The position numbers were made by a program, and so were the translations under genes. The notes below the pieces were generated by a model. It was not told the DNA's origin and searched no databases. It was given only the letters and a program-made list of their open reading frames with translations. Shown piece after piece: positions 1,429 to 43,017 of a stretch of DNA of 43,017 nucleotides; positions within the stretch are counted from its first letter, which is position 1, and the number at the start of each line of letters is the position of its first letter. Source of the DNA: a virus; the IMG/VR virus record IMGVR_UViG_3300031673_000138, positions 1 to 43,017 of that record, one strand, 5' to 3'.

Positions 1429-2919
1429 GTGAGCGAGCGGTGGAAGGACTGGATCAATACGGTTAAGTGCCTTGACTGCCTCGAAGGCATGAAGCAGATG
1501 CCGGATGGGTGTGTGGACGGCATTGTCACCGATCCACCTTATGGCCTAAAGTTTATGGGCAAGGAATGGGACAAGGGGGTGCCCGGTGTACCGTTCTGGT
1601 TAGAAGCTCTCCGAGTAGCCAAGCCCGGAGCGCATCTCTTGGCCTTTGGTGGGACTCGAACCTTTCACCGTTTGGCCTGTGCGATTGAGGACGCGGGCTG
1701 GGAGATACGGGACACGATCATGTGGGTTTATGGAAGCGGGTTTCCTAAGAGCCACGATGTGAGCAAGGCAATGCGAGAGGTAGTCGGGAAATTGGCACAA
1801 CCAGCAACACCAAAGCACGGCACCTTCAACTGCTCCTTTGACGAAAGCAGGGCAGTTATCACCTTTCCCGCCACTGATGCCGCAAAGCACTGGCAGGGCT
1901 GGGGCACTGCGCTCAAGCCAGCCGTTGAATTGATCTGTGTAGCCCGCAAGCCTCTGGAAGGAACCGTAGCCGAGAACGTGCTCAAGTACGGGACGGGGGC
2001 GATGAATATAGATGGGTCGAGGGTAACTGCAAATAACCACTTGACAGGCCAACGGCCTTGTGTTATATTGACGGAAAAGAAAGGAGAACCGTCATGGGAA
2101 CAAGGTCAAAACCTCTGCGATTCGTGTGCAAAGCGTGCGGGGCTGAACGGGAGACGTTCAACACCGGGAACAAAGGACATTTCTGCTCAAAGCAATGCCG
2201 CGCCGACTTTGAGCGAAAAGGGAGAGAACATCCGCGCCGATACAAGCAAGCCGGACATTGGATGCTCTGCTGGACAGAAGCAGGTGGAACCAGAGACCGC
2301 CCGAACCGCAAATTCGAGTTTGAGCATGTCCGAGTCTGGCGCGAAGCCAACGGTGCAATCCCTGCCGGGCATTGTATCCACCACGTCAACGGCGATGGAT
2401 TCGACAACAGGCTTGAAAACCTGTGCGTCATGCGGATCGGCGATCACATCGCTATGCACAAGCGGAAGCATGGCAAATACGCCCGTCGGTAGGTGGCCGA
2501 GCAATCTGATCCACGACGGAAGCGAGGAAGTGGTGAGGGGGTTTCCGACTGTTAAAAGTGGAAAGATGAAACAACATATTGAAGGTGGTAGTTTCAATGT
2601 TTATGGAAAACAATATCCCAGGGAAGTAGAAACGATAGGCGACTCCGGCTCTGCCGCCCGCTTTTTCTATTGTGCGAAAGCGTCTAAGAGTGAACGGGGT
2701 GGTTCGACCCATCCAACGGTGAAGCCCCTAAGACTCATGGAGTACCTTGTCAGGCTGGTCAGCCGAGACGATCAGATCATTCTTGATATGTTCGCAGGAT
2801 CGGGAAGCACGCTGGTTGCCTGTAAGGAGCTTGGGCGACGGTTCATTGGTTTTGAGATTAACGAAGAAGATGTCAAGCAATGCAACGGGCGATTGGGGCA
2901 TACGGGGAGTTTGCTTTGA
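1429..2919 (+). CDS. DNA N4-cytosine/N6-adenine methyltransferase carrying an in-frame insertion
   Basis: A 496-residue amino-methyltransferase with a GTG start abutting the previous stop. Motif IV TDPPYG is at residues 34-39. The AdoMet-binding motif DMFAGSGSTLVACKELG lies near 455-471, so the order is catalytic motif first, as in the beta group. Residues from about 208 to 354 do not look like methyltransferase. The natural join appears to be ...HLTG followed by RWPSNLIHDGSEEV, and 147 Ser/Thr/Ala/Gly-rich residues are wedged between. Those codons are the out-of-frame reading of the HNH gene at 2094-2492. The insertion keeps the frame open, so the enzyme may still fold with the extra segment. 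Activity is uncertain. Confidence 0.9.
   Translation: MSERWKDWINTVKCLDCLEGMKQMPDGCVDGIVTDPPYGLKFMGKEWDKGVPGVPFWLEALRVAKPGAHLLAFGGTRTFHRLACAIEDAGWEIRDTIMWVYGSGFPKSHDVSKAMREVVGKLAQPATPKHGTFNCSFDESRAVITFPATDAAKHWQGWGTALKPAVELICVARKPLEGTVAENVLKYGTGAMNIDGSRVTANNHLTGQRPCVILTEKKGEPSWEQGQNLCDSCAKRAGLNGRRSTPGTKDISAQSNAAPTLSEKGENIRADTSKPDIGCSAGQKQVEPETARTANSSLSMSESGAKPTVQSLPGIVSTTSTAMDSTTGLKTCASCGSAITSLCTSGSMANTPVGRWPSNLIHDGSEEVVRGFPTVKSGKMKQHIEGGSFNVYGKQYPREVETIGDSGSAARFFYCAKASKSERGGSTHPTVKPLRLMEYLVRLVSRDDQIILDMFAGSGSTLVACKELGRRFIGFEINEEDVKQCNGRLGHTGSLL
2041..2069 (+). promoter_or_regulatory. Sigma-70 promoter for the nested HNH gene
   Basis: TTGACA at 2041-2046 and TATATT at 2064-2069 are separated by exactly 17 bases. 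This is a near-consensus promoter lying inside the methyltransferase gene at the left edge of the inferred insertion. It is followed 25 nt later by the ribosome-binding site and ATG of the HNH gene. Confidence 0.7.
2094..2492 (+). CDS. HNH endonuclease nested out of frame in the methyltransferase gene
   Basis: A 132-residue HNH homing-type endonuclease. The N-terminal part carries a zinc site (CKACGAE then FCSKQC). The HNH core is FEHVRVWREANG, HCIHHVNGDGFDNRLENL and a final HIAMH. ATG 2094 follows AAAGGAGA at ideal spacing, and a consensus promoter lies just upstream. The whole gene lies inside the methyltransferase gene in a different frame and ends one codon before the host protein resumes its family sequence. 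Known phage HNH genes sit between genes or inside introns and inteins; here no intron or intein signals are evident. It probably cuts insertion-free alleles of the methyltransferase gene and spreads by repair (inference). Confidence 0.88.
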   Translation: MGTRSKPLRFVCKACGAERETFNTGNKGHFCSKQCRADFERKGREHPRRYKQAGHWMLCWTEAGGTRDRPNRKFEFEHVRVWREANGAIPAGHCIHHVNGDGFDNRLENLCVMRIGDHIAMHKRKHGKYARR

Positions 2920-3015
2920 CCCACGCCCCCGGACACTGACGGAAGAACGAGGGAAGCGTCCTGTCTGACCGAGAATTGGAGGCTTTGGTCGAGGGCATAA
3001 TGAAAAGGTGGTTGT

Positions 3016-3309
3016 ATGAAGAACACTTTGGATCGTCGGCAATGTCCCTGTGGTTGCGGCAGGTGGTTCGTGCCGAGCAAGTTCCGACCCGATCAGATGT
3101 ACTTCTCCCAGGAGTGCGGGCAGAGGTATAGAGAAAAACAAGGGCACGGTTTGCAGCACTCGGACAGAGAAACTCCGGAAGAATTTGCCGAGCGGTCGAA
3201 GGACATAGCGAGACACTTGCTGGGGATGGTCAAGCTACGGACAGACTATGAACTCGGCATAAGGAAGCACGCGGTGACATACCACCAGAAACCGAGGAGG
3301 GAGAAATGA
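3016..3309 (+). CDS. Small Cys-rich protein, early region
   Basis: A 97-residue hypothetical protein. Its N-terminus has CPCGCGRWFVPSKFRPDQMYFSQ and then ECGQRYREK, a pattern typical of small zinc-binding domains (three Cys, then one Cys after about 20 residues). The C-terminal half is charged and helical. ATG 3016 follows the weak purine run AAAAGGTGG, and the end overlaps the next gene by 4 nt. It begins a string of overlapping small early genes (3016-4295). No function assigned. Confidence 0.7.
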   Translation: MKNTLDRRQCPCGCGRWFVPSKFRPDQMYFSQECGQRYREKQGHGLQHSDRETPEEFAERSKDIARHLLGMVKLRTDYELGIRKHAVTYHQKPRREK

Positions 3310-7900: not shown

Positions 7901-9262
7901 GTGACGAGAGTGACGAAGAAAAAAGCTTCGGAGAGTGGTTTTTCCGCGAATGAGCAACGAGCATTGTTTGCAATGGCATCTATCCTGGCGAGCCGGGCCA
8001 ACCTCGCATCGCGACTGGGCATGTCTTTTGGCGAGAAACGAGACATATACGAAGCCTTGGGATATCCCAAGTCGCCCGGTTTTGATGACTACGTGGCCTG
8101 TTACAAACGTCAGGATGTGGCTAGGGCAATAATCGATGCACCGGTCAGGGCGTGTTGGAGAAAAAAACCACGGATTACGGAAAGCAAAGAAAAAGATACG
8201 GACTTTGAGAAGGCATGGAGAAGCCTGGTGGCTTCAAAGGGAATTTATCATTACCTTTCTCGCGTGGACAAAATGGCATCAATTGGTTGTTTCGCGATAC
8301 TTTTCATGGGACTTGATGATGGTATTGACATGGGCAGAGAGGCGAAATCGGCCAAAAACCTGCTTTATCTCATGCCCTATTCACAATCCAACGCAATTAT
8401 TTCTACGAGTGAAACCGACAAGAAAAATCCACGTTACGGCTTACCCGCGACATATTCACTAACAATGAAAGCCCACACAACAGAGGGAAATTTGTCATCT
8501 AGTGTGCATTGGTCGAGGGTGATTCATGTCGCAGAGGATTGCCTGGAGGACAATGTTCTGGGCCTTCCCAGCCTTGAACCAGTACTGAATCGACTAATCG
8601 ACCTGGAGCGCGTAGCAGGAGGTTCCTCGGAGATGTTTTGGCGGGGCGCTTTCCCGGGCTATGGATTCAAGCAGGATCCGGGTACTTCAATGGGAAAGCA
8701 AGATCTTGATGATCTAAAAAATGAGATCGAAGATTACATGCACAAGCTCCAGCGATACATACGCCTCCGTGGCATCAGCGTGGAGAACCTTGCACAACAA
8801 GTTTCCGATCCTTCAAACCACGTTGGAATTCTTATAGATCTGATCGCCTGTGCCAAACGGATACCCAAGCGAATTCTCATGGGATCCGAGCGTGGGGAAT
8901 TGGCATCAAGCCAGGATGAAAGGGCTTGGAATGATAGAATAGATGAGAGACGTCGAGAGCACTGCGAGCCCGTTATTCTTCGACCATTCATTGATCGACT
9001 CATAACCGTGGGAGTTTTGCCAAGGCCAGCTGGCGGATATGCCGTGGAATGGCCATCGCTTACCATCACTTCTGCCAAAGAAAATGCAGAGGTAGCACAA
9101 CAGACATCAATGGCATTGAAGAATTACGTGGATGCAATGGGTGCAGATCAAGTTGTTCCCCCGGAAATATTTTTGAGGGAGGTGCTGGGATTCAGCGAGG
9201 AGGTTATTTCCGAAATTGAGCTGATTGTCAAACAGGGACACGGTTATGAAAACGATGAATAA
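7901..9262 (+). CDS. Portal protein (DUF1073-like)
   Basis: A 453-residue portal that would form the dodecameric DNA channel at one head vertex. The N-terminal motif (GYPKSPGFDDYVACYKRQD, VARAIIDAPVRACWRKKP), the middle (SRVIHVAEDCL, LERVAGGSSEMFWRGA) and the late segment (KRIPKRILMGSERGELASSQDE) match the DUF1073/HI1409-type portal family as I know it. Length fits. The GTG start follows GGAGGA. It lies downstream of terminase, as expected, but is separated from the Mu-F-like head gene by the exported-protein cassette. Confidence 0.88.
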   Translation: MTRVTKKKASESGFSANEQRALFAMASILASRANLASRLGMSFGEKRDIYEALGYPKSPGFDDYVACYKRQDVARAIIDAPVRACWRKKPRITESKEKDTDFEKAWRSLVASKGIYHYLSRVDKMASIGCFAILFMGLDDGIDMGREAKSAKNLLYLMPYSQSNAIISTSETDKKNPRYGLPATYSLTMKAHTTEGNLSSSVHWSRVIHVAEDCLEDNVLGLPSLEPVLNRLIDLERVAGGSSEMFWRGAFPGYGFKQDPGTSMGKQDLDDLKNEIEDYMHKLQRYIRLRGISVENLAQQVSDPSNHVGILIDLIACAKRIPKRILMGSERGELASSQDERAWNDRIDERRREHCEPVILRPFIDRLITVGVLPRPAGGYAVEWPSLTITSAKENAEVAQQTSMALKNYVDAMGADQVVPPEIFLREVLGFSEEVISEIELIVKQGHGYENDE

Positions 9263-9293: not shown

Positions 9294-9803
9294 ATGAAGA
9301 AGCTCGTGCTTTTTGCGGTTCTGTTGTGCCTATTGTCGGTTCCCGGTGCCGCCGGTGTTCTCGACAATGGATATGCAATGGTCGGCGGTGGAGCATTTGG
9401 CACACCAGACCAGATCAAGGTTGGAGATATTCACGGGTTTGCCATAGCCTCCGGCTTGGTCCCGCTATATCTCAACAGCAAGCTATTGGGTCGAGTCAGC
9501 TTTGCCAACCTTAACAGCGAGAAGGAAGTTGAGAGCTATACCGGTTCTGTAATGTTGATGAGCCGGAATGTCGCATCCAACCTTATCAATCCTTACGCAT
9601 TTACCGCACTCAGCCTGACACATGAGGCAGAGTCGAATGATCCGAATTCTTTCGGAATGGATGGTGGAATTGGCCTGATGTGGGAGTTGATAGGCGGGCA
9701 CTGGTATGGAGAGGCAGGATATAAAAACATTGCAGGGGATGCATCGTTCGGATTGAGTTTGGGATTGGTTTTTGATCTGAACAAGCCAGCAGAGAAACAG
9801 TGA
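9294..9803 (+). CDS. Exported, predicted outer-membrane barrel-like protein
   Basis: A 169-residue protein with a clear Sec signal peptide (residues 1-20, KKLVLFAVLLCLLSVPGAAG). The mature part alternates glycine-rich amphipathic strands (AMVGGGAFGTP, SYTGSVMLMSRNVA, GMDGGIGLMWELIGG, FGLSLGLVFDLN), as in small outer-membrane beta barrels. GGAGGAG precedes the ATG. It is unrelated to any phage structural family I know and opens a cassette of exported proteins. It may alter the host surface (inference). Confidence 0.7.
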   Translation: MKKLVLFAVLLCLLSVPGAAGVLDNGYAMVGGGAFGTPDQIKVGDIHGFAIASGLVPLYLNSKLLGRVSFANLNSEKEVESYTGSVMLMSRNVASNLINPYAFTALSLTHEAESNDPNSFGMDGGIGLMWELIGGHWYGEAGYKNIAGDASFGLSLGLVFDLNKPAEKQ

Positions 9804-9867
9804 GGTCACCGCACAGATCTCACCACAAAACATGCCTAGGAGAGAAAGTGGTTCGGAGAGGCCTAAG

Positions 9868-10173
9868 ATGATCAAAACGCTTAAAGAGAAGATGCAGTGG
9901 GAGCGACTGCACCATCTCTATATCGGGATTTTCGGAGGATCTGTCTGCCTGGCCGGGGTTTGCATCGCCCTGGCTTATAGAAGCCTCTCTACCGTAGGAT
10001 ATCTCCTCGGTGGAGCCATACTCCTGCTCTCCTGGGCATTTGATGATTGGTTATACCACCAGCATGGGTGGCGGACACCATGTTGGTGGATAGAACAAGC
10101 CTTGAGAAAACTTAAAGCGTGGCGGACCATAGAGGCGTTCGCAAATAAGATAATCGGAGGAAAACCGGAATGA
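9868..10173 (+). CDS. Membrane protein with two predicted helices
   Basis: A 101-residue protein with two hydrophobic segments (IGIFGGSVCLAGVCIALAY and VGYLLGGAILLLSWAF) and a basic C-terminal tail. ATG 9868 is preferred over 9832 because GGAGAGG lies just before it. Its stop overlaps the next gene (ATGA), placing it in the lysis block; it could be a holin partner or pinholin-type protein, though it is not a member of a family I can name. Confidence 0.7.
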   Translation: MIKTLKEKMQWERLHHLYIGIFGGSVCLAGVCIALAYRSLSTVGYLLGGAILLLSWAFDDWLYHQHGWRTPCWWIEQALRKLKAWRTIEAFANKIIGGKPE

Positions 10174-10457
10174 AAAAACTCATTGCATACCTAAAGCTTT
10201 TCGGGATGTTCAAGAATATCAATCAGGTATATCGGGAGGAGACCGGGAAGGACCGGCCTCCCTATCTAAGCCGGCGGTTCATCGGAATGGTGATCCTGCT
10301 GGCAGGTGCAGTTCTCTCTCTCCATTTTGGGACACAGATCGATCAGAATATCCTGGAGCAAATCATAGACAACCTGGACAAGGTAATCTCAGCCGGGATG
10401 GTTATTTATGGGCTCGTCATGGGCATAGTGGGTATCCTGAAGAGAGAGAAAAAGTGA
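10170..10457 (+). CDS. Holin-like membrane protein
   Basis: A 95-residue protein with two predicted membrane segments (FIGMVILLAGAVLSLHFG and VISAGMVIYGLVMGIVGIL) separated by an acidic loop, and charged ends (KREKK at the C-terminus). Size, topology and position directly before the muralytic enzyme make it the best holin candidate; its stop overlaps the next GTG start. The call rests on topology and context. Confidence 0.65.
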   Translation: MKKLIAYLKLFGMFKNINQVYREETGKDRPPYLSRRFIGMVILLAGAVLSLHFGTQIDQNILEQIIDNLDKVISAGMVIYGLVMGIVGILKREKK

Positions 10458-10897
10458 GCCTGAACAAATATCAGTTCAAGGAGCTGATCGAGAAAACGCT
10501 CCGGATATTCGATCCGGTTCTCCTGAGTCCCCAGGCTGTTAAGCTTCAATTGATAACGGCAGCCGTGGAGAGCGGATTCGGCACACACCTGAGACAGTTG
10601 GGCGGAGGTCCAGCGCTGGGATTCTTTCAGATGGAGCCGGGGACGTTTAGGTGGCTGAAAAGAGTCTATCAGACCAAGTATCCTGAGCTGATCGATCGGC
10701 TGCCGGAAGAGCTCGAGTGGGATATCCGCTTGGCCATTATCATGGCTCGTTTGAGGTATAGGATCGTTCCCGAAGCCCTCCCGGGAGAAAACGATATCCA
10801 GGGCATGGCAGCGCATTGGAAAGAGTATTATAACACATCTGCTGGTGCGGGTAAAGTAATGGATTTCATAGAAGCTTATCAGAGGTACGTTAAATGA
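10454..10897 (+). CDS. Lysozyme/transglycosylase-like endolysin
   Basis: A 147-residue soluble protein with the signature of a goose-type or SLT-like muralytic fold: LQLITAAVESGFGTHLRQLGG, with catalytic Glu39 in A-V-E-S-G, then PALGFFQMEPGTFRWL, and a late repeat region HWKEYYNTSAGAG. It has no signal peptide, so release would need the holin. GTG start in a 4-nt overlap with the holin-like gene; the stop overlaps the next ATG. Confidence 0.8.
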   Translation: MSLNKYQFKELIEKTLRIFDPVLLSPQAVKLQLITAAVESGFGTHLRQLGGGPALGFFQMEPGTFRWLKRVYQTKYPELIDRLPEELEWDIRLAIIMARLRYRIVPEALPGENDIQGMAAHWKEYYNTSAGAGKVMDFIEAYQRYVK

Positions 10898-11292
10898 ACC
10901 GGCGTAACTTTCTCAAGTTGATTCCCTGTGCAGGTCTGGCTCTCTGTGTGCCCAAGATTGTACGGGGAGAGGATAGACCAAACTGTATCGATAATTGTGA
11001 CCAATGTACCCTGGACCGGATGTGCTGTAGAACGCTTAAGGTTCCCCTAAGAGAAGGGGAGAGGATAAGGTTAATTAACGCTGCTGAAAGGCTTGGTTTA
11101 CCTCCACCCAAACTTAGTCTATACGAACATAGGGGCATACAGTATGAAGAAATGTTACCACCCTGCACGTTCTGGCACTACGCTACTAAACGATGTCTAA
11201 TATGGGGAAAGGAACAACCTTGTGCGTGTAAAAAGTATTATAGCTGTGGTATTTGGTGTGCTTCTGCTATTCCTCAGTACGTCCAATGCTGA
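10894..11292 (+). CDS. Tat-exported YkgJ-like Cys-cluster protein
   Basis: A 132-residue protein. The N-terminus MNRRNFLKLIPCAGLALCVP is a twin-arginine (Tat) signal with the RRNFLK motif. The mature part has a metal-binding Cys pattern (C..NCDQCTLDRMCCR, then CTFWHYATKRCLIWGKEQPCACKKY) that resembles the YkgJ/Fe-S-zinc chelating family. Tat export fits a protein that folds around its metal in the cytoplasm. Such a protein in a phage lysis block is unusual. The ATG overlaps the endolysin stop; its end overlaps the next gene by 71 nt in another frame. Confidence 0.75.
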   Translation: MNRRNFLKLIPCAGLALCVPKIVRGEDRPNCIDNCDQCTLDRMCCRTLKVPLREGERIRLINAAERLGLPPPKLSLYEHRGIQYEEMLPPCTFWHYATKRCLIWGKEQPCACKKYYSCGIWCASAIPQYVQC

Positions 11293-11908
11293 GGCTACCC
11301 TGACGGGAGTAGACACACTGTACCTATATAGCGACACGACTGGATGCACGGAAGATTGTGATACGTGCTGGACGGGTAACTGGGTTAACATGCAGAGCAG
11401 TGACGATGTTTATGTAACTGCGGATTTCATTAGTTTGTTTGAGTTGGGTTATTTTAAGATAGATGCTGTGGACACATTGGAAAGAGACCTTGACTCGCTT
11501 GCATATCTTTTTGAAGGGAAAACATCTACAAGTACACGCGAAGTTTACCTGGGAAGATTTTACTGCGACTCAGAAGGCGGATATTATGCATGCGACACGT
11601 CGTGGACGTTGACGACTGACGAGACAACGCACAGAATAGCGATTTTAGAAAACATCTGTCAAGAACCTCCCGAACCTTGGCCTCAGAATGGTTGGGTGAA
11701 TTTCTTTTTCCCTGTCGACATTCCGTTTGGAATACATTCAGGCGCAGGTACATGGAGTAAGGGGCAGGTTGTTTCGGTAGACATGCTGGCGGTAATAGTT
11801 TACAGCACAAGTACGGCGGAGCCGTCGGGTCAGGTCATAATTATAGGGAGAATGGATGAAGAAAATCACAATCCTCGTTTTGGTAAGCCTGCTATTTATT
11901 GTCAGTAG
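11222..11908 (+). CDS. Exported Cys-containing protein
   Basis: A 228-residue protein with a strong Sec signal peptide (VKSIIAVVFGVLLLFLSTSNAEA). The mature region is acidic, Thr/Ser/Asp-rich and beta-like, with paired cysteines (GCTEDCDTCW, FYCDSEGGYYACD) suited to disulfides in the periplasm or outside. GTG start with AAAGGAAC upstream. It overlaps both neighbours (71 and 53 nt). No family was recognised; its style matches surface or adhesin proteins rather than virion proteins. Confidence 0.7.
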   Translation: MRVKSIIAVVFGVLLLFLSTSNAEATLTGVDTLYLYSDTTGCTEDCDTCWTGNWVNMQSSDDVYVTADFISLFELGYFKIDAVDTLERDLDSLAYLFEGKTSTSTREVYLGRFYCDSEGGYYACDTSWTLTTDETTHRIAILENICQEPPEPWPQNGWVNFFFPVDIPFGIHSGAGTWSKGQVVSVDMLAVIVYSTSTAEPSGQVIIIGRMDEENHNPRFGKPAIYCQ

Positions 11909-12767
11909 CGGACAGGCTCAGGTTGCCAGGGTGCATGGCAAACAACAAAATGCCGTTTTCACGGATAGCATAACGGGTAATATTGTAATGCAGGATGATT
12001 GGTGGATCGGTATGTCCGCAGACTCCGGCAGGATTATATTTGACGGTACTCTCTTAGACGATATAATCATAAAGAATGCTCGATTGATAGTATCGCAGCC
12101 ACTCAATGAATCTCAGTTTCGCATTACCACCAGCGCGGACTTGACCACAAAGTATGTGGATTTTGAAGAGGTCGAAGGTGATCTTGAGATCAGAACGTCT
12201 GGGGGAGACGTCTCCTTTACAGATGAGCGAGTCAAAGGCGCGGGTGCGTTCGCCATAGGATCGGTAATGTTAGCTGCGGATTCTGCCCTTACAGTCTGGG
12301 CGGGAGCGCATATTTATCAAAACCTGTATGTTGAAGACAACATAAAATCGAATGGTAGGGTGTGGGCAGATACGTTCTATAAGGGTGCGGTGGAGGCAGA
12401 TTCAACATTGGTGACAAATAAATATATCAGAAATCGACCTCAAAGCAAGAGTTTTACAATTGCCAATATAGATAACACCTTTGATTTCAAACTCTGGAAG
12501 ACTCCCGTTGCCATCACTATCGATTCGGTATTCGGGCAGTGCTCAGACGGGACTAACGTAGTGGGCGCACTCGATGAATATGATTGGGACTATACTGATC
12601 TGGTAGCCATTGTAAACGCAGACTGGACGTTCACTACAACCTATCAGGCCATTGGTTCTTTCACCAATGCAGGGATCGCAGCCAAGAACCATCTGCGCTG
12701 GCATACAACATCGGTAAGTGGAGCGGTGACATTTTTTGATATAACAATCTGGTTTCATGAAGATTAG
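11856..12767 (+). CDS. Exported fibre-like beta-solenoid protein
   Basis: A 303-residue protein with a signal peptide (KKITILVLVSLLFIVSSGQAQ). Residues about 60-190 consist of short repeating strands ending in Asp/Gly turns (IIFDGTLLDDIIIKNARLIV, LEIRTSGGDVSFTD, LTVWAGAHIYQNLYVEDNI), typical of trimeric beta-helical fibres. The C-terminal 100 residues look like a globular beta head (WDYTDLVAIVNADWTF). A fibre with a cleavable signal peptide is odd for a phage. ATG with AGGGAG upstream, overlapping the previous gene. Confidence 0.68.
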   Translation: MKKITILVLVSLLFIVSSGQAQVARVHGKQQNAVFTDSITGNIVMQDDWWIGMSADSGRIIFDGTLLDDIIIKNARLIVSQPLNESQFRITTSADLTTKYVDFEEVEGDLEIRTSGGDVSFTDERVKGAGAFAIGSVMLAADSALTVWAGAHIYQNLYVEDNIKSNGRVWADTFYKGAVEADSTLVTNKYIRNRPQSKSFTIANIDNTFDFKLWKTPVAITIDSVFGQCSDGTNVVGALDEYDWDYTDLVAIVNADWTFTTTYQAIGSFTNAGIAAKNHLRWHTTSVSGAVTFFDITIWFHED

Positions 12768-12845
12768 AGGAGGGCTGATTATGCTAATATCAAAAGACAC
12801 ATAAGACGAACTAAAACAATTAACTCTTTTAACGGAGGTGGGAAG

Positions 12846-14087
12846 TTGAAAACATCTGAAAAACTGAGAAAGATATGGAGTTTGATCCCCGACGCAATAT
12901 CCTTCTTGTTGATGGTCATGGTCGCCTGTATGATTCTCTACGTGCCTGTATGGGCTTACATCAATAAAACAGTCGGAGGTGTTGGCAATAATCCTGGCTA
13001 TGGTACTATTACTCGCGGTGATTCCCTGCATGTCGTTCCTACAGTGTTGTGGACTGACAGCCTGTGGGAGATGGTCTACTTGATGATTGAAACGACAACG
13101 GCTGTCATTCCCGTGGCTGATTCTGCGCTCAAGTATACTCACGACGGAATCAAGGATTATCACATGGATTGGGGAACCGGCACGCATCAAGTTTCTACGG
13201 ATGATATAACTGAGGGATCGTCAAATTTATTTGACCAAGACCTGCCGGATTCGTCTGACTGGTCTACAGCGTATTCCTGGGGAGATCATTCGGGTCAGAA
13301 TTATTTAGATGAAGATAATCTCGGAACATGGAAAGTCTTTTACAGCGATGATGGAACTGCGGATTGGGTTGAATTAGCTCTTGGTGCAGACGGAACTTAT
13401 CTCAGGTCTAACGGCGCGTCTGCCGCTCCTACATTTGATACCCCCCCTGGTGGTGATCCTGGTTCTGCAATCCATGATTCGGTTTATGCCAACACTCCTG
13501 GTTATGCGACGAACAGTGAAATTGGAGATACTATAACTGCCAATTGGGCTGTCTTTATTGCTGGTGATGGAGATGCTTCAGAAGCAGACGTGCATGATTC
13601 GTTAGCAACTCATTATATCCAGCGATTTGTCTGGCCTGTAAATGCAATTGAAGGCAACATAGCAGGTGGTCTTGAAATGCTTTATCCTGTTGCTGTAGAC
13701 AATTTTGATTGGACGATTCGCTACACCGCTACCAGCGATAATTCAACAGACACCGCTCTAATTTTCAGCTTTCGTATGCCAATGGGGTGTGATGGAGATG
13801 GACTTGATACTATAGCGTTTAATGCTCGGACTACTGGATTAGCAGTAGAAGATGCCTCAATTGAAGTGATGGTATATAAGAGAACTGCGGATGGTGGGGC
13901 AGCCATTGCAATTGATTCTCTGGATGCCTTCAATACGGCTGGAGCTTGGGAGCATAAAATCATAACCGGATTTAGCACTAACGCATCTCCTGGTGACTGG
14001 ATCAGAATCGAAATGATTGTTAATTGTGATGCAACAGACGATACTGTATTCCATGATCTAACCTATGGATGGTATACGGGCATATAA
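12846..14087 (+). CDS. Membrane-anchored tail-fibre-like protein
   Basis: A 413-residue protein with TTG start after GGAGGTG. Residues about 13-37 (IPDAISFLLMVMVACMILYV) form a transmembrane anchor or uncleaved signal. After it comes a phage-fibre element near 135-160: DSSDWSTAYSWGDHSGQNYL matches the W-x-x-AY-x-WGDH-x-x-x-YL repeat of tail-fibre stalks. The C-terminal 150 residues resemble a beta-rich receptor-binding or trimerisation head (MVYKRTADGGAAIAIDSLDA). Anchor plus fibre stalk suggests display on the infected cell's membrane, or a fibre whose hydrophobic N-terminus docks to the tail. Confidence 0.72.
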   Translation: MKTSEKLRKIWSLIPDAISFLLMVMVACMILYVPVWAYINKTVGGVGNNPGYGTITRGDSLHVVPTVLWTDSLWEMVYLMIETTTAVIPVADSALKYTHDGIKDYHMDWGTGTHQVSTDDITEGSSNLFDQDLPDSSDWSTAYSWGDHSGQNYLDEDNLGTWKVFYSDDGTADWVELALGADGTYLRSNGASAAPTFDTPPGGDPGSAIHDSVYANTPGYATNSEIGDTITANWAVFIAGDGDASEADVHDSLATHYIQRFVWPVNAIEGNIAGGLEMLYPVAVDNFDWTIRYTATSDNSTDTALIFSFRMPMGCDGDGLDTIAFNARTTGLAVEDASIEVMVYKRTADGGAAIAIDSLDAFNTAGAWEHKIITGFSTNASPGDWIRIEMIVNCDATDDTVFHDLTYGWYTGI

Positions 14088-14098
14088 AGGAGAAAGCT

Positions 14099-15139
14099 GT
14101 GAAACGATTAGCCGTAGCGTTCATTCTGCTTTGCGCTCTATGGGTTAACGTCTACTCCGAAGACATCACGGTGGGGGATACGCTCGGACTTTATTACCCT
14201 ACGCACGTCAACAATGTGATGGCTCCCTGGGACACAATGGTTGCTGATATTATTCACTGTGGCGTTTACCTCGAAAGGGTTGCTATGGTTGGCACTGGCG
14301 GTGGCGAATGGCATGGGGTTTATATTGCAACATTCCCAGGAAGTTTCGCCGCCGCCTATAAGGCGGTATATGCCGGAGATACTACAGCAGGAGAACCACA
14401 GTATTTTGGCGTTCTTGATACTACGGCCTTTCATGGATCGGCTGCCGGATTAACAGCACAGGAGATAATTGATTCCCTTGTCAATCAGGGATATATCCCT
14501 GGTATCGGCTCTGGTGAATTTGCCTGCACATTGGAAGTTCGAGACAGTTCGCTTCAGGCTGGAATACAGGGTGTTGTCATAGCCATAAAAAACAACGCTC
14601 AGAGTATAACCCTTCGGTCAGGTGTTACCAATGGAGACGGCCTGGCGTTTTTCAACCTGGACCCACTTACAACCGGAAATAGTTATAAGCTATGGCTACA
14701 AGAACTTGGTTACAACTTTACATTTCCCGAAACATTGGATCTGCGTGGAGACACCACGGCGGTATTCTACGGCACCGCCTTTGATGTTGGATCTCCTCCG
14801 GTGGCTAATAAATGCCGAGTCTATGATCAGATCTTTGACTTTGAGCTTGACAGTCTCAGTGGCGTGGAGATAGCGGTCAGGCTCGATGTACCAAAGGACT
14901 CGATCCTGAGATATGAGGGGTATCCAATCTCACCCTATAGAAAAACCTACACTACTGGCGTGAACGGACGATGGTCGTTTGATCTGGTTCCAAACTCGGA
15001 CTATTCGCCATCTGGCACAGTTTATATATTCAAGTTCAAGCATCCGGTTGTGGGTGGTCCCTACTTTATCTACGAGGACACTGCGACTGTGCCAGACCAG
15101 GAGACGGCACGATATCGTGAGATAAGCGGAAAGATGTGA
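14099..15139 (+). CDS. Exported protein with CarboxypepD-reg/Ig-like domains
   Basis: A 346-residue protein. GTG 14099 follows AAAGGAGAAA and gives a signal peptide (KRLAVAFILLCALWVNVYS); an earlier start at 14069 lacks this support. Residues about 145-230 (CTLEVRDSSLQAGIQGVVIA, then GVTNGDGLAFFNLDPLTTGN) match carboxypeptidase-regulatory/CNA-B-like Ig folds. A second similar domain follows (KTYTTGVNGRWSFDLVPNSD). Such domains act as stalks and carbohydrate binders on surface proteins and in phage fibres. It is the last gene of the exported cassette. Confidence 0.7.
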   Translation: MKRLAVAFILLCALWVNVYSEDITVGDTLGLYYPTHVNNVMAPWDTMVADIIHCGVYLERVAMVGTGGGEWHGVYIATFPGSFAAAYKAVYAGDTTAGEPQYFGVLDTTAFHGSAAGLTAQEIIDSLVNQGYIPGIGSGEFACTLEVRDSSLQAGIQGVVIAIKNNAQSITLRSGVTNGDGLAFFNLDPLTTGNSYKLWLQELGYNFTFPETLDLRGDTTAVFYGTAFDVGSPPVANKCRVYDQIFDFELDSLSGVEIAVRLDVPKDSILRYEGYPISPYRKTYTTGVNGRWSFDLVPNSDYSPSGTVYIFKFKHPVVGGPYFIYEDTATVPDQETARYREISGKM

Positions 15140-15140
15140 G

Positions 15141-17150
15141 ATGAGCAGAATTTGTATATGTGAGAGTGTGGAAAGTATCGGTGATGAGCGGTTATCACTG
15201 AACAATACGTTCCGCATCGATCCGACACGGACCACCATGTTGAGGCGACGATTTGTGGCTGAGATGGATCGGCGGTTCAATGTGCTTAAGCGGGACATAA
15301 AGACATCAATTATGATGCGTGATTGCTTTGGGATTCAGCCAGACATGTTACCAAGCCCCGGATCCCTGGCGAGTCTTTCCGCAGCTTCGTGGAGGGCGTT
15401 TGATTTTCCACGCTCACCAGATAAGGTGACCGCGTTTATGGCATGGTTACAAGAACAGGTTGAGATGGGAATATTGGAAATAATTCAAAGACCAGGAGTA
15501 CACTTTGATCCAGCCGGATCTCCCTGGACAAACCTTTACATCGACCCTGCTTATCAGAAAGGCATACGTCGCTCCAGGGCAGAGCTGATAGCGAAGGGCT
15601 ATCAATTACCAGTCCTTGATAATATGCCGGGAGGAATTGCAGCCATTATGAGCCAGCCCTTCCATGCCGAAAGGGTGGCGGCTATTTATACCAGGACATT
15701 TGAGGACCTGCGGTCGGTGACACAGGTGATGGGTGCGCAGATCCGACGGCTGATTGCCGATGGCCTGACCACCGGACTGGCCCGGGGACTGGCAGAAGGC
15801 AAGAATCCAAGAGATATTGCTCGCGAGCTCATGAGGGATGTGGCGAATAGAGTTGACAAGATAGGCATCACCCGGGCCCGGATGATAGCGCGAACCGAGG
15901 TGATCAGGGCCCACCATGTGGCCACCGTGGCTGAATACAGACAAGCCAGCGAAGAGATGCAGGTTGATGTTATGGCTGAATGGTCAACTGCCGGTTATGA
16001 TGTGTGTGAGATCTGCCAGGAAATGGCTCTGGCCGGTCCGTATACTTTGGACCAGATTGAGGGGATGGTCCCTGCACATCCGAATTCGTACGCGGCAGGG
16101 ACGGAGATTTACACGAAAGATGGCTTCGTTCCGGTTGAGCGTGTCAAGGTGAACAATAATTGTCTGTCCCTTAATCCTGAAACATTCGATTTGGAATATG
16201 TGCCCGTAGTGGGGACGTTCGCGCACAAGGAAAAGCAGATGGTTCAATTTCTCAGTCGCACCTTCGACATGCTGGTTACAGAGAACCATCAGATGTTCAC
16301 TCTACGGCGCGAGCGCAAATGGACAGCACCGCGATCCTGGGAATTTATAGACGCCATTACCGTCCCAAAGGAGAGCATGTTTTATCGCTCATCAAGGTGG
16401 GCGGGCTATTCCGAACCCACAATAACGGTCAACGGTACGGAGATTGAGACTGCCCTATTCGCCGAATTCATGGGATGGTGGCTGTCTGAAGGGTCGCTCT
16501 CCCAAAACGTCATTGTTCTTAGCCAAAGCTCTACTGCCAATCCAGACAAATATGAGAGAATTGCCGAGGTATGCTCACTGTTGGGTAGAACTTCAAGGCG
16601 CGCGTCTGCTGTCGCCCTCTGGAACGATAAACTGTACGCGTACCTTGCTCCACAGGGAAAACAACCCGTGCGTTATGTGCCGGAGGAGGTCAAGCAACTA
16701 TCACCCGCCTATCTCAGAGTGTTTCTTGATAGTTTCGCGGCTGGAGACGGCCACGTCAGACAATGCAAGCCCTGGAAGGGTGGGGACTTTTCTCCAGAGA
16801 TCGTTCACATGACATCCTCTCGACGCATGGCGGATGGTCTTGGTGAGTGCATTCTCAAGGCAGGGCGATGCCCCAGCTTTTATTGTTATCCGAATGCCGG
16901 AAAGGTTGTCCAGCACAAGAACGGAGCATACGCTGGGAATTTCGATACATGGTTTATACGGGAATGCAGAACGCAGATGGCGAGACTTGAATCTAGAGTG
17001 AAGCGTACGTTGGTTGACTATGATGACACTGCCTTCTGTGTGGAGTTGGCGAAATTTCACACTCTATGGGTACGGCGAAACGGAAAGACAGCATGGTCTG
17101 GTAATTGCCGGTGTTGTGCAATACCGGTGGTGAAGGAAAGGGAGGGGTGA
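15141..17150 (+). CDS. Mu F-like minor head protein precursor with intein
   Basis: A 669-residue precursor. Residues 1-315 are a minor head (SPP1 gp7/Mu F-like) protein: helical middle, then GLARGLAEGKNPRDIARELM, ITRARMIARTEVIRAHH and a C-terminal zinc-like element. The expected end is HPN-CRC, but the sequence reads HPN, 340 residues of intein, then CRCCAIPVVKEREG. After splicing the mature protein would have 329 residues. The ATG is 1 nt after the previous stop. The protein is needed at the portal vertex during head assembly, so splicing may be essential for virion formation. Confidence 0.92.
   Translation: MSRICICESVESIGDERLSLNNTFRIDPTRTTMLRRRFVAEMDRRFNVLKRDIKTSIMMRDCFGIQPDMLPSPGSLASLSAASWRAFDFPRSPDKVTAFMAWLQEQVEMGILEIIQRPGVHFDPAGSPWTNLYIDPAYQKGIRRSRAELIAKGYQLPVLDNMPGGIAAIMSQPFHAERVAAIYTRTFEDLRSVTQVMGAQIRRLIADGLTTGLARGLAEGKNPRDIARELMRDVANRVDKIGITRARMIARTEVIRAHHVATVAEYRQASEEMQVDVMAEWSTAGYDVCEICQEMALAGPYTLDQIEGMVPAHPNSYAAGTEIYTKDGFVPVERVKVNNNCLSLNPETFDLEYVPVVGTFAHKEKQMVQFLSRTFDMLVTENHQMFTLRRERKWTAPRSWEFIDAITVPKESMFYRSSRWAGYSEPTITVNGTEIETALFAEFMGWWLSEGSLSQNVIVLSQSSTANPDKYERIAEVCSLLGRTSRRASAVALWNDKLYAYLAPQGKQPVRYVPEEVKQLSPAYLRVFLDSFAAGDGHVRQCKPWKGGDFSPEIVHMTSSRRMADGLGECILKAGRCPSFYCYPNAGKVVQHKNGAYAGNFDTWFIRECRTQMARLESRVKRTLVDYDDTAFCVELAKFHTLWVRRNGKTAWSGNCRCCAIPVVKEREG
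16086..17105 (+). other. LAGLIDADG intein (340 residues) in the Mu F-like gene
   Basis: Residues 316-655 of the precursor. Block A starts at Ser316 (SYAAGTEIYTKDGFVPVERV). Block B holds T-x-x-H in LVTENHQMF. The two LAGLIDADG helices are AEFMGWWLSEGS and VFLDSFAAGDGHV, each with an acidic residue. Block F is FHTLWVRRNG and block G ends AWSGN before Cys656. Nucleophiles are Ser at +1 of the intein, terminal Asn655 and Cys as the first downstream extein residue. The penultimate residue is Gly rather than His, a known variant. Splicing and homing activity both look possible. Confidence 0.92.
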
Positions 17151-17433: not shown

Positions 17434-17468
17434 GCCGATTCGCCCTAACGGGTGGGTCGGCTTTTTTT
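17434..17468 (+). terminator. Intrinsic terminator between head genes
   Basis: GCCGATTCGCCC (17434-17445), a TAAC loop and GGGTGGGTCGGC (17450-17461) form a stem, followed by TTTTTTT. It divides the terminase-portal-exported block from the protease-capsid block. Read-through or a promoter after it must supply capsid transcription; I found no convincing promoter in 17356-17495. Confidence 0.85.
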
Positions 17469-31522: not shown

Positions 31523-31669
31523 TTGCGTGTACCAGAATTTGACAGTAAGAACAGATGTAAGCTAAAGGGTTATGATGGCAACACCTATCACATGACCCTG
31601 AAAACATGGGAACACATAATCAACCGTCCTGAACGCGATGTAATCAAGTTCAATTTTGATATAGAATGA
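31523..31669 (+). pseudogene. Probable truncated coding fragment
   Basis: TTG 31523, after AGGATAGGATAG, opens 48 codons reading LRVPEFDSKNRCKLKGYDG, then NTYHMTLKTWEHIINRPE and a stop. The YHMT-x-x-TWEHI-x-x-RPE pattern resembles the first part of small phage nuclease-like (PBECR-type) proteins of about 120 residues; the rest is missing where the convergent exported gene ends. On the other strand, between 31290 and 31500, another open stretch (FLRYVDVIICQEE) appears to carry a frameshift. The 437 bases from 31213 to 31649 look like decayed genes, not a regulatory island. Confidence 0.3.
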
Positions 31670-32855
31670 GAACCTTGGATATCGTGACACAATTTTGCCC
31701 ATCTAGGGTTGGGTCAAAGACGGGGACTTTGATTATGCGGGGGCTGATAGGATAGACAGAATTTACAACCGTGTAAGAGATTGAATCCCATGTTGCCGTG
31801 GAATCCAAATCGATTAAACATTTGAGTCCCTGAACCGTTGGTCCTTTCATGCTGCCAGCCTCTATGTAAAGCTGATCGCCTGGACTTATAATAAAGGGTT
31901 CGCTCTCTTCACATATCCACCGTCGATAAGAATCTGCGCCCGTGTATATCATATCACTACCTATCTGACCAAAACAGACTGCGTAATAATAACACGCCTT
32001 GGGTAATTCAACAGAACTCCTTAATTTTAAGACCATCTGATCTCCGACTTTACTTGACGCTTCATAGCCAGTGATATTGGGATCGTAAGGTTCGGTCATA
32101 TCCCATAAACTATCTTGATCTGCATCATCCCATCTGTCTGGAAAAGAAAAGGGCTTCAAACCATCAGTTCCACAAAGGATAGATACATCCACTGTATCTT
32201 CTGACGAATCGCCGATTATGTATATTTCTGCCTTATATTGTCCCAATGTTTTTATTGAGTCACGATATGCTGTAACTGTAATCGTAGCATCGTTGGTGCC
32301 ACTGGTCGGAGAAACAGCAAACCAATCATCCTCTGACTTGGAGATGGTCCAGTTTAAAGGTTCTTCTCCCATATTTTCAATTTCAAAAGAAACAACACTT
32401 CTTCCTGCCTCGAAATTTACTTTGTCGGTAGAAACAGAGAGCGTCGCCTTTGCAAACAGGGTTTTGTGTGAACAATGGCCCGTGCAGACGATGCGAATAT
32501 TTCCGTTTACTGTAGCATCGGCCTTTCCACTGCACCATCTTTCCGGATTGGTTTGATAACACTCGAACGTTACTTCTACCCTGTCACTATCTCTAAATGC
32601 CTTGTTATCTCCATCTATCAGGTTAGGTAAGATGACGGTATCTCCTTTTTTCACATATTGATTGAGTTGTTTAAAAATACTTATTTCACCTCGTGTGTGT
32701 CTATATTTAGTAATTTGGGCATTCGGATAGTCCGATTCATTCGTAAACCTTACCAGCGGTTCTTCTATATTCGATGATGGGGATTTTGTCGTTTTTGAAC
32801 ACACAGACACCGAGAAACACACCAAGGGCAAGAGTATCAATTTAAGTATTCTCAT
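31650..32855 (-). CDS. Exported BACON-domain protein linked to the repressor
   Basis: A 401-residue protein on the repressor strand. ATG at 32855 gives a signal peptide (RILKLILLPLVCFSVSVCS); the Cys contexts do not fit a normal lipobox, so a lipoprotein is uncertain. Residues about 137-222 form a BACON-like Ig domain (NWTISKSEDDWFAVSPTSG then TNDATITV). The C-terminal half (WDDADQDSLWDMTEPYDPN) looks like another beta domain. It starts 13 nt after the repressor stop with no separate promoter seen, so it should be expressed in the lysogen. BACON domains bind glycans or mucin, suggesting surface alteration, adhesion or superinfection exclusion. Confidence 0.78.
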   Translation of the reverse strand: MRILKLILLPLVCFSVSVCSKTTKSPSSNIEEPLVRFTNESDYPNAQITKYRHTRGEISIFKQLNQYVKKGDTVILPNLIDGDNKAFRDSDRVEVTFECYQTNPERWCSGKADATVNGNIRIVCTGHCSHKTLFAKATLSVSTDKVNFEAGRSVVSFEIENMGEEPLNWTISKSEDDWFAVSPTSGTNDATITVTAYRDSIKTLGQYKAEIYIIGDSSEDTVDVSILCGTDGLKPFSFPDRWDDADQDSLWDMTEPYDPNITGYEASSKVGDQMVLKLRSSVELPKACYYYAVCFGQIGSDMIYTGADSYRRWICEESEPFIISPGDQLYIEAGSMKGPTVQGLKCLIDLDSTATWDSISYTVVNSVYPISPRIIKVPVFDPTLDGQNCVTISKVLILYQN

Positions 32856-32868
32856 CCCAGATTTTCCT

Positions 32869-33549
32869 TCACTCAAACCTTTTCCATGCCCAGACCACCT
32901 GGCCAAGGATCAAGCCATCCTTCTGGGCGGTTATGAGCGGAGCGTGTTCTTCCTCCCAGCGTGGATTAATCGCCTTGAAATGGAATCTGTCCTCCACCAC
33001 CAGGAGCTGCTTGACTGTCACCTGGAAATCACCGGTATGACACGCCACTATCTTTTTGTTGAGTCTTTTGGAGTCCTTCCTGGTGACGTCGACCGCCACC
33101 ATATCCCCGTTGTCCAGAACAGGGGTCATGGAATCCCCCTGCACAAATATGCAGTATGGCTTGCCCACGTTCCGCAGGGTGCGACGGTGAATGAGACATG
33201 TCCCCTGGACATCGGATTCGGTGATCTCGAGACCGGTGCCGAGAGAAACGGGATCTGACAGCAAAGGAACCGGGACGAAATTCTCGACATCCTCTCCATA
33301 GAGAGGTCGCTGGGAGACCACGAGTTTGTGTTCTATCACAGGTGTGGACTTACGCTGACAACCGAAAAATTCCACGATATCGATATCTAACCCCTTTGCC
33401 AGAGCAAAGAGCGTGTCCAGGTTTGGCTTATACTTTCCCGCCAATATCTTCGAGAGATGCGATTCCGCAATGCCTGTTAATTTGGATGTCTTGTAAGCGG
33501 AGTATCCCTTTGACTCAATTACCCGTTTTATTTCTTTTCCTATATCCAC
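32869..33549 (-). CDS. CI-like repressor (XRE HTH plus S24 peptidase-like domain)
   Basis: A 226-residue lysogeny repressor. The HTH is at residues about 8-40 (VIESKGYSAYKTSKLTGIAE then SHLSKILAGKYKP). The S24 domain has Ser140 in FVQGDSMTPVLDNGDMVAVD and Lys180 in VTVKQLL, the catalytic dyad. The linker (residues 65-115) has no Ala-Gly or Cys-Gly pair, so RecA-driven self-cleavage may not occur or may use another site. GTG start without a ribosome-binding site. It would bind the palindrome at 33642 and silence cro. Confidence 0.9.
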   Translation of the reverse strand: MDIGKEIKRVIESKGYSAYKTSKLTGIAESHLSKILAGKYKPNLDTLFALAKGLDIDIVEFFGCQRKSTPVIEHKLVVSQRPLYGEDVENFVPVPLLSDPVSLGTGLEITESDVQGTCLIHRRTLRNVGKPYCIFVQGDSMTPVLDNGDMVAVDVTRKDSKRLNKKIVACHTGDFQVTVKQLLVVEDRFHFKAINPRWEEEHAPLITAQKDGLILGQVVWAWKRFE

Positions 33550-42696: not shown

Positions 42697-42892
42697 GGAG
42701 CTGAAGAACTCTGAGCGGCTTTGGAAGGTCTTGCGGTTACTCATGCTTGGGCCGCATACGACCCGGCAGTTACAAAGGGCAACTGACTCTACGGGTACAT
42801 CCGCCACCATCTGTGAGCTAAGGAGGAACTTGATTCCCGTAATATCTACACCGGTTGGCCGGACCGTAGAGTATTCGCTACTGGAGGGATAG
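42662..42892 (+). CDS. Winged-helix protein, paralogue of 35345
   Basis: A 76-residue winged-helix protein: LWKVLRLLMLGPHTTRQLQR, ATICELRRNLIPVIS, VEYSLLEG. It shares the GPHTT, ELR-x-N-x-IPV and YSL-x-EG motifs with the protein at 35345. ATG 42662 is preferred to GTG 42653. Its stop lies in the terminal repeat; in the circle it is directly followed by the C5-methyltransferase gene. It may regulate the methyltransferase genes. Confidence 0.72.
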   Translation: MPRKRADKERFEELKNSERLWKVLRLLMLGPHTTRQLQRATDSTGTSATICELRRNLIPVISTPVGRTVEYSLLEG

Positions 42893-43017
42893 CTGGATCT
42901 GACCATGCTAATGGAGGCGCGGTGAAGGTGGGGTCGCTGTTTAGCGGGATAGGAGGATTCGATCTTGGACTCGAAGAAGCAGGAATGCAAGTTGTCTGGC
43001 AGTCGGAGATTGAACCG
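42891..43017. repeat. Terminal direct repeat (copy 2)
   Basis: Identical to bases 1-127. It includes the stop of the winged-helix gene and the start of the C5-methyltransferase gene, and shows that the molecule closes to a circle. Confidence 0.9.

Follow-up and report, generated by a model that had tools for sequence, protein, structure and literature searches.

A block of nine genes (positions 9294 to 15139) lies between the portal gene and the gene for a MuF-like head protein in IMG/VR virus record IMGVR_UViG_3300031673_000138, whose 43,017 bases were analysed as a whole and are called the window here. Eight of the nine genes encode a predicted Sec, twin-arginine (Tat) or transmembrane signal; the exception is the endolysin gene at 10454. 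Judged by gene content and order in the window and its relatives, the block is two modules, one for lysis and one for export, inside the head-gene operon. The export module encodes fibre-like proteins, and the favoured reading, given a probability of roughly 0.45, is that these would be displayed adhesins acting where particles meet the cell envelope around lysis. The block, its borders and the nearest terminator are as follows, with L numbers denoting loci and G numbers genomes:

7901-9262, plus strand: portal protein, the left border (phrog_146, E 2.5e-59).
9294-9803, plus strand: Sec signal and putative small outer-membrane beta-barrel (rule-based scan; a 59% identical protein follows the L092 portal).
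9868-10173, plus strand: small membrane protein, holin-like (rule-based scan; Shine-Dalgarno (SD) motif at start 9868, none at 9832).
10170-10457, plus strand: small membrane protein with a weak holin match (phrog_4712, E 0.013).
10454-10897, plus strand: endolysin or lytic transglycosylase-like protein, no signal (phrog_3108, E 2.8e-34).
10894-11292, plus strand: cysteine-rich protein with a predicted Tat signal, NRRxFL (a 39% identical homologue with the same Tat motif lies directly after the L097 portal).
11222-11908, plus strand: predicted Sec protein of unknown fold (signal score 4.57; SD motif).
11856-12767, plus strand: predicted Sec fibre-like protein 1, or fibre 1 (syntenic Sec homologue in L196, 4e-26).
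12846-14087, plus strand: predicted Sec fibre-like protein 2, or fibre 2, with a TTG start (homologues in L097, L193 and L196, all with a signal and V-x-A).
14099-15139, plus strand: predicted Sec protein 3, whose C-terminal two thirds are common with a Zixibacteriota chromosomal protein (homologues in L097, L193 and L196, all with a signal).
15141-17150, plus strand: MuF-like head protein, the right border, with an intein-like insert at about 16086-17105 (phrog_758, E 5.2e-36; split HPN/CRC motif).
17434-17461, plus strand: terminator-like hairpin of 12 pairs plus a T run, the sole strong rightward one in the region.

Signals were called by an in-house rule-based scan rather than by SignalP, and its background rate elsewhere in related phages is about 5%. 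The scan predicts Sec-type signals in 9294 (MKKLVLFAVLLCLLSVPGAA^GVL), 11222, 11856 and 14099; a twin-arginine signal in 10894 (MNRRNFLKLIP...); transmembrane segments in 9868 and 10170; and a long hydrophobic signal in 12846. Six of the nine genes score at least 3.0, versus 2 of 45 in the rest of the genome (Fisher p = 8e-5). SD motifs precede 9294, 9868, 11222, 11856, 12846 and 14099, and none was found before the longer alternative starts at 9832 and 14069. V-x-A and, right behind it, [YVI]-I-N-[KR] are present in each of the four fibre 2 homologues, and 12846 is therefore more likely to carry a cleavable signal than a membrane anchor. In the 14099 family, a conserved [EQ]-[DT]-I-T opens the mature part immediately past the predicted cleavage site. 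Taken together, the scan, the SD motifs and the homologue alignments reveal real starts followed by signals of n-h-c form with small residues at -3 and -1, or by a twin-arginine motif. No lipobox was seen when the export-module signals were inspected by eye, which sets them apart from lipoproteins of the T5 Llp type. Thus, an earlier sequence-only reading of this DNA had located all nine genes correctly and was right about their signals. Its count of seven in nine was not (it lists eight itself), and its membrane anchor in 12846 is the less likely reading.

It is very probable that the export module is real and that its products are exported. Fibre-like sequence and a position in the head operon would also suit proteins whose N-terminal hydrophobic stretches are not export signals at all, and which stay in the cytoplasm and enter virions as ordinary fibres. 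However, that idea is highly improbable in view of the n-h-c pattern, the small -3/-1 residues aligned across the fibre 2 homologues, the NRRxFL motif kept in the L097 homologue of 10894, and the strong enrichment over other phage genes.

The same enrichment is found in relatives. Eighty portal relatives were examined, with mechanical gene calls, at loci picked by portal similarity and not by signals. The portal-to-MuF distance is often less than 200 bases among them, and the gap is 1.7-8.2 kb in L093, L094, L097, L100, L101, L103, L113, L119, L134, L152, L158, L159, L161 and L169. Since many relatives have portal and MuF side by side, the gap is a variable insertion site. Signal-positive genes make up 24 of the 64 genes in portal-MuF gaps, against 41 of 773 among the other genes of these loci (odds ratio 10.7, p = 8e-13). 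IMG/VR also has close copies (L002 and L005, with L004/L006/L191/L194 lying on the same two contigs); all stem from a single sample, are fragments of the same phage and were not used as independent instances.

The export module itself recurs before MuF in two relatives. L196 has the order of the window (Sec protein, fibre 1, fibre 2, 14099 homologue, MuF, protease, capsid), and its fibre-like genes retain the signal. Between portal and MuF, L097 runs Tat, Sec, Sec, ..., fibre 2, 14099 homologue; its Sec protein in the place of 11222 has marginal similarity to it (E 0.008 for the pair). Fibre 2 and a 14099 homologue are also present in L193. The fibre 2 homologues share 30-44% identity with the window protein, the 14099 homologues 31-52%. 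More distant relatives (G137, G138, G139 and L130) encode large fibre- or adhesin-like proteins with a signal upstream of the portal gene; at loci that include TerL, these lie between it and portal (L237-L244 and L255-L256, which are G137, G138 and G139; and L130). Fibre-like proteins with a signal may thus be a frequent trait of this phage clade.

Searches of PHROG, Pfam, NCBIfam, PDB (11856 omitted) and phage records gave no significant match for 11856, 12846 or 14099, and none of the three belongs by homology to a described tail fibre or receptor-binding family. Isolated phages yielded no direct homologues of these three proteins, of the Tat protein or of two isolated domains. The C-terminal domain of 11856 is 50% identical to part of a fibre-like protein in L094, and exported proteins at the site in relatives give weak Fn3 and PKD matches in G137 and a weak CBM96 match in L093. 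An Ig-like label once proposed for 14099 goes back to a weak CarboxypepD_reg match of E 0.0018, below the Pfam cut-off; the WGDH-type repeat reported in the block is a motif (WGDHSGQNYL) that occurs once only. Nevertheless, a fibre- or adhesin-like character of the export-module proteins is supported, as is the earlier view that three of them are fibre-like and placed for late expression.

The block had been taken as a single 5.8-kb cassette with lysis genes in its middle. This idea was rejected, because L097 keeps the lysis part elsewhere: a barrel-like protein (homologous to 9294, 2e-6), a small holin-like membrane protein and an endolysin (homologous to 10454, 2e-51) form a group behind the tail hub, away from the exported fibres at portal/MuF. 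The block therefore divides into a lysis module (9294-10897) and an export module (10894-15139), and what recurs before MuF in L196 and L097, as the sequence-only reading had proposed to look for among metagenomic phages, is the latter. The endolysin at 10454 matches 163 phage records, several with an endolysin annotation. In the G001 prophage, an endolysin, a membrane protein and a signal-bearing small protein lie behind the fibre genes. A signal-bearing small barrel-like protein recurs by holin-like and endolysin genes in several phages of the clade (the window, L092, L097 and L230), and no spanin was recognised. The outer-membrane barrel fold of 9294, which has no sequence match in Pfam or PDB, is inferred, and the protein may help with the outer-membrane stage of lysis. 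Its nearest precedent appears to be phage lambda Lom, whose gene is flanked by those for the tail spike and the fibre and whose product is put into the host membrane (PMC12309495). Lom and related phage barrels share with 9294 a signal peptide and a small putative barrel among late genes. Unlike Lom, 9294 adjoins holin and endolysin genes, and the comparison leaves aside the five export-module proteins.

Both modules are likely to be co-expressed late with the head genes, since genes of the block overlap or are closely spaced (the stop codon of 14099 is one base ahead of MuF) and the first strong terminator comes only at 17434. Promoter-like matches in the region do not exceed chance (13 versus 15.6 expected). 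The block falls within the order TerS (5556), TerL (6091), portal (7901), block, MuF (15141), followed by a possible protease (17496), the major capsid gene (19992), tape measure (25144) and tail proteins (27765 and 28789). The window, with a CI-like repressor gene reading leftward at 32869, looks like the genome of a temperate tailed phage. Because its first and last 127 bases (1-127 and 42891-43017) are identical, the record is probably a complete circular assembly. The best portal match among sequenced genomes (58%) is in a Candidatus Zixiibacteriota genome, and the host is therefore inferred to lie in or near that phylum. At the right border, an intein-like insert of about 340 residues with weak HINT/intein matches splits the HPN/CRC motif of MuF; in L097, L196 and the G001 prophage, MuF has the length of an uninterrupted protein.

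A temperate phage with exported cargo, infecting bacteria that carry relatives of 14099 themselves (see below), could use such genes for lysogenic conversion, in which prophage-made proteins alter the lysogen surface for adhesion, nutrient binding or exclusion. Exported cargo is typical of conversion genes. However, the block lies in the rightward run of head genes, with small gaps or overlaps and no strong terminator, and so should be silent in a lysogen; moreover, a likelier conversion gene sits beside the repressor. Conversion by the block is thus improbable. The gene beside the repressor (31650-32906, minus strand) encodes a putative lipoprotein with a lipobox-like SVSVC and a viral BACON domain (PF19190, E 5.7e-9), and is a candidate lysogenic-conversion or exclusion gene.

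The relatives of 14099 in bacterial chromosomes are widespread. A profile of the four phage 14099 proteins was searched against 132 genomes of the phylum of G001, a membership that rests on database grouping around G001. It matches 115 of the 132, mostly in one copy and over about the C-terminal 200 residues, and 15 of 19 examined host proteins carry a signal by the same scan. In the genomes read, the neighbours are a terminase (phrog_2, 5e-27) and a portal (phrog_3753, 3e-30), both checked in G001 and G030 only, a major head protein (phrog_3922, 4.5e-72) and a virion structural protein (phrog_4588). A capsid profile matches 111 of the 132 genomes, nearly always as a single copy. The homologue and the capsid gene are on the same contig in 75 genomes; the distance between the two is 4.0-8.4 kb in 74 of them, with a median of 5.8 kb. 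The element reads terminase, portal, capsid, structural protein and then two signal-bearing proteins, and was located in G001 C6 (L228-L229), G015 C1 (L218-L219), G030, G032 and others. It looks like a domesticated head element and is possibly a gene transfer agent: as in gene transfer agents, terminase, portal and capsid genes are conserved in the chromosome, with a mostly single-copy capsid gene kept across the lineage. Unlike gene transfer agents, it encodes exported proteins, and no tail genes (tail tube or tape measure) were recognised near it in the regions read. A search of open-access papers for capsid elements of Zixibacteria found nothing relevant.

Phage and host element appear to have exchanged the terminal domain of 14099. 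The L193 homologue (2251-3231) is chimeric, with a phage-type N-terminal part and a host-type C-terminal domain. It is 73% identical to the L196 protein over the first 118 residues and 24% in the rest, while its C-terminal part is 54% identical to host proteins (host G108). In a tree, this part falls inside a host group, apart from the other phages, with support of 100/99.

Because a cousin of 14099 adjoins a phage-capsid gene in most members of the phylum, the exported proteins are suggested to govern contact of particles with the cell surface. Two accounts of this contact were weighed. In the favoured one, the export-module proteins would leave the cytoplasm late in infection by Sec or Tat, settle as adhesive fibres in the periplasm or the outer membrane, and work at the interface between particle and envelope around lysis. 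Most likely they would occupy sites on the surface or change them; progeny would then not be caught on the dying cell or on pieces of it, and related particles would be kept out. In the host, the chromosomal counterpart would have this role for the domesticated capsid element. G031 suits such a surface role independent of particle building, since its 3.27 Mb contig has the exported protein intact and no capsid gene was found.

The nearest functional precedent may be phage T5 Llp, as proteins of this type prevent adsorption to infected cells and to lysed cell fragments (PMC9586334). The likeness is that of an exported phage protein acting at the envelope, and the effect would be the same through different proteins. 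Llp is an early lipoprotein that blocks FhuA; those of the window are large Sec or Tat proteins, probably of a late operon. Surface-displayed proteins of bacterial diversity-generating retroelements (DGRs) offer another likeness, as exported, adhesin-like display proteins. Phage DGR target proteins are without signal peptides (PMC6199706), and against these the signal-bearing phage proteins stand out. Open-access papers on signal-bearing phage fibres yielded nothing relevant, and, as previously proposed, no described system was found to match this composition.

In the second account, the proteins are virion fibres with an export step, stored in the periplasm (perhaps disulphide-bonded or trimerised) and docked on capsids or tails at lysis. 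In the textbook picture, tail fibres are both built and mounted on the particle inside the cytoplasm, and no tailed phage is known to gain fibres after export. Fibre-like sequences favour docking, and L130 encodes an 829-residue protein in which a Sec signal precedes tail-fibre-like repeats and a 75-residue stretch has 68% identity with an annotated tail fibre that carries no signal (L235). The genes also have portal, MuF and lysis genes as neighbours, the homologue in host chromosomes keeps company with a capsid gene, and the 14099 family swaps terminal domains, as is typical of receptor-binding fibres. In addition, neither the window nor L097 has an obvious signal-less fibre gene behind the tail hub, whereas the G001 prophage, which is without the export module, has three. 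Strict complementarity, in which the export module replaces ordinary fibres, fits these three. It was rejected because G137 encodes, behind its hub, a fibre-like protein without a signal in addition to exported ones. G137 thus argues that export there is more than a step in the making of the tail fibre, and with the want of precedent and the retention of the exported protein in G031 it makes docking after lysis rather unlikely.

Several points also weigh against displayed adhesins. In the window, the exported proteins share no domains with tail proteins and resemble none of the other proteins encoded there, and in three relatives they have weak matches at most. By the same comparison, a decoy in the form of a copied virion receptor-binding domain was rejected; the sequence-only reading had named decoys in general. 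The lack of an obvious fibre gene behind the hub in the window and L097 counts here too, and binding of the proteins to the particle would explain co-inheritance with the capsid gene just as well. Production of T5 Llp, moreover, is early rather than late. Structure predictions from four-sequence alignments were unusable (mean pLDDT 38 and 32).

A broader statement spans both accounts and is put forward tentatively, at somewhat lower confidence than envelope display itself. It holds that a Sec-exported fibre module is common to phages of Zixibacteriota or related bacteria and to a domesticated capsid element retained throughout that phylum, and that it acts outside the cytoplasm as the recognition partner of the particles, on the envelope or docked after lysis; the system would be split across the membrane, with its terminal domains exchanged. 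The apparent domain swap would show phage and host element drawing on the same recognition module, and the host counterpart, next to a capsid gene found in nearly the whole phylum, hints at a domesticated particle not reported so far. For the phages, a conserved set of fibre-like proteins made late and exported would imply either a novel form of control over the envelope at lysis or fibres added to particles once exported.

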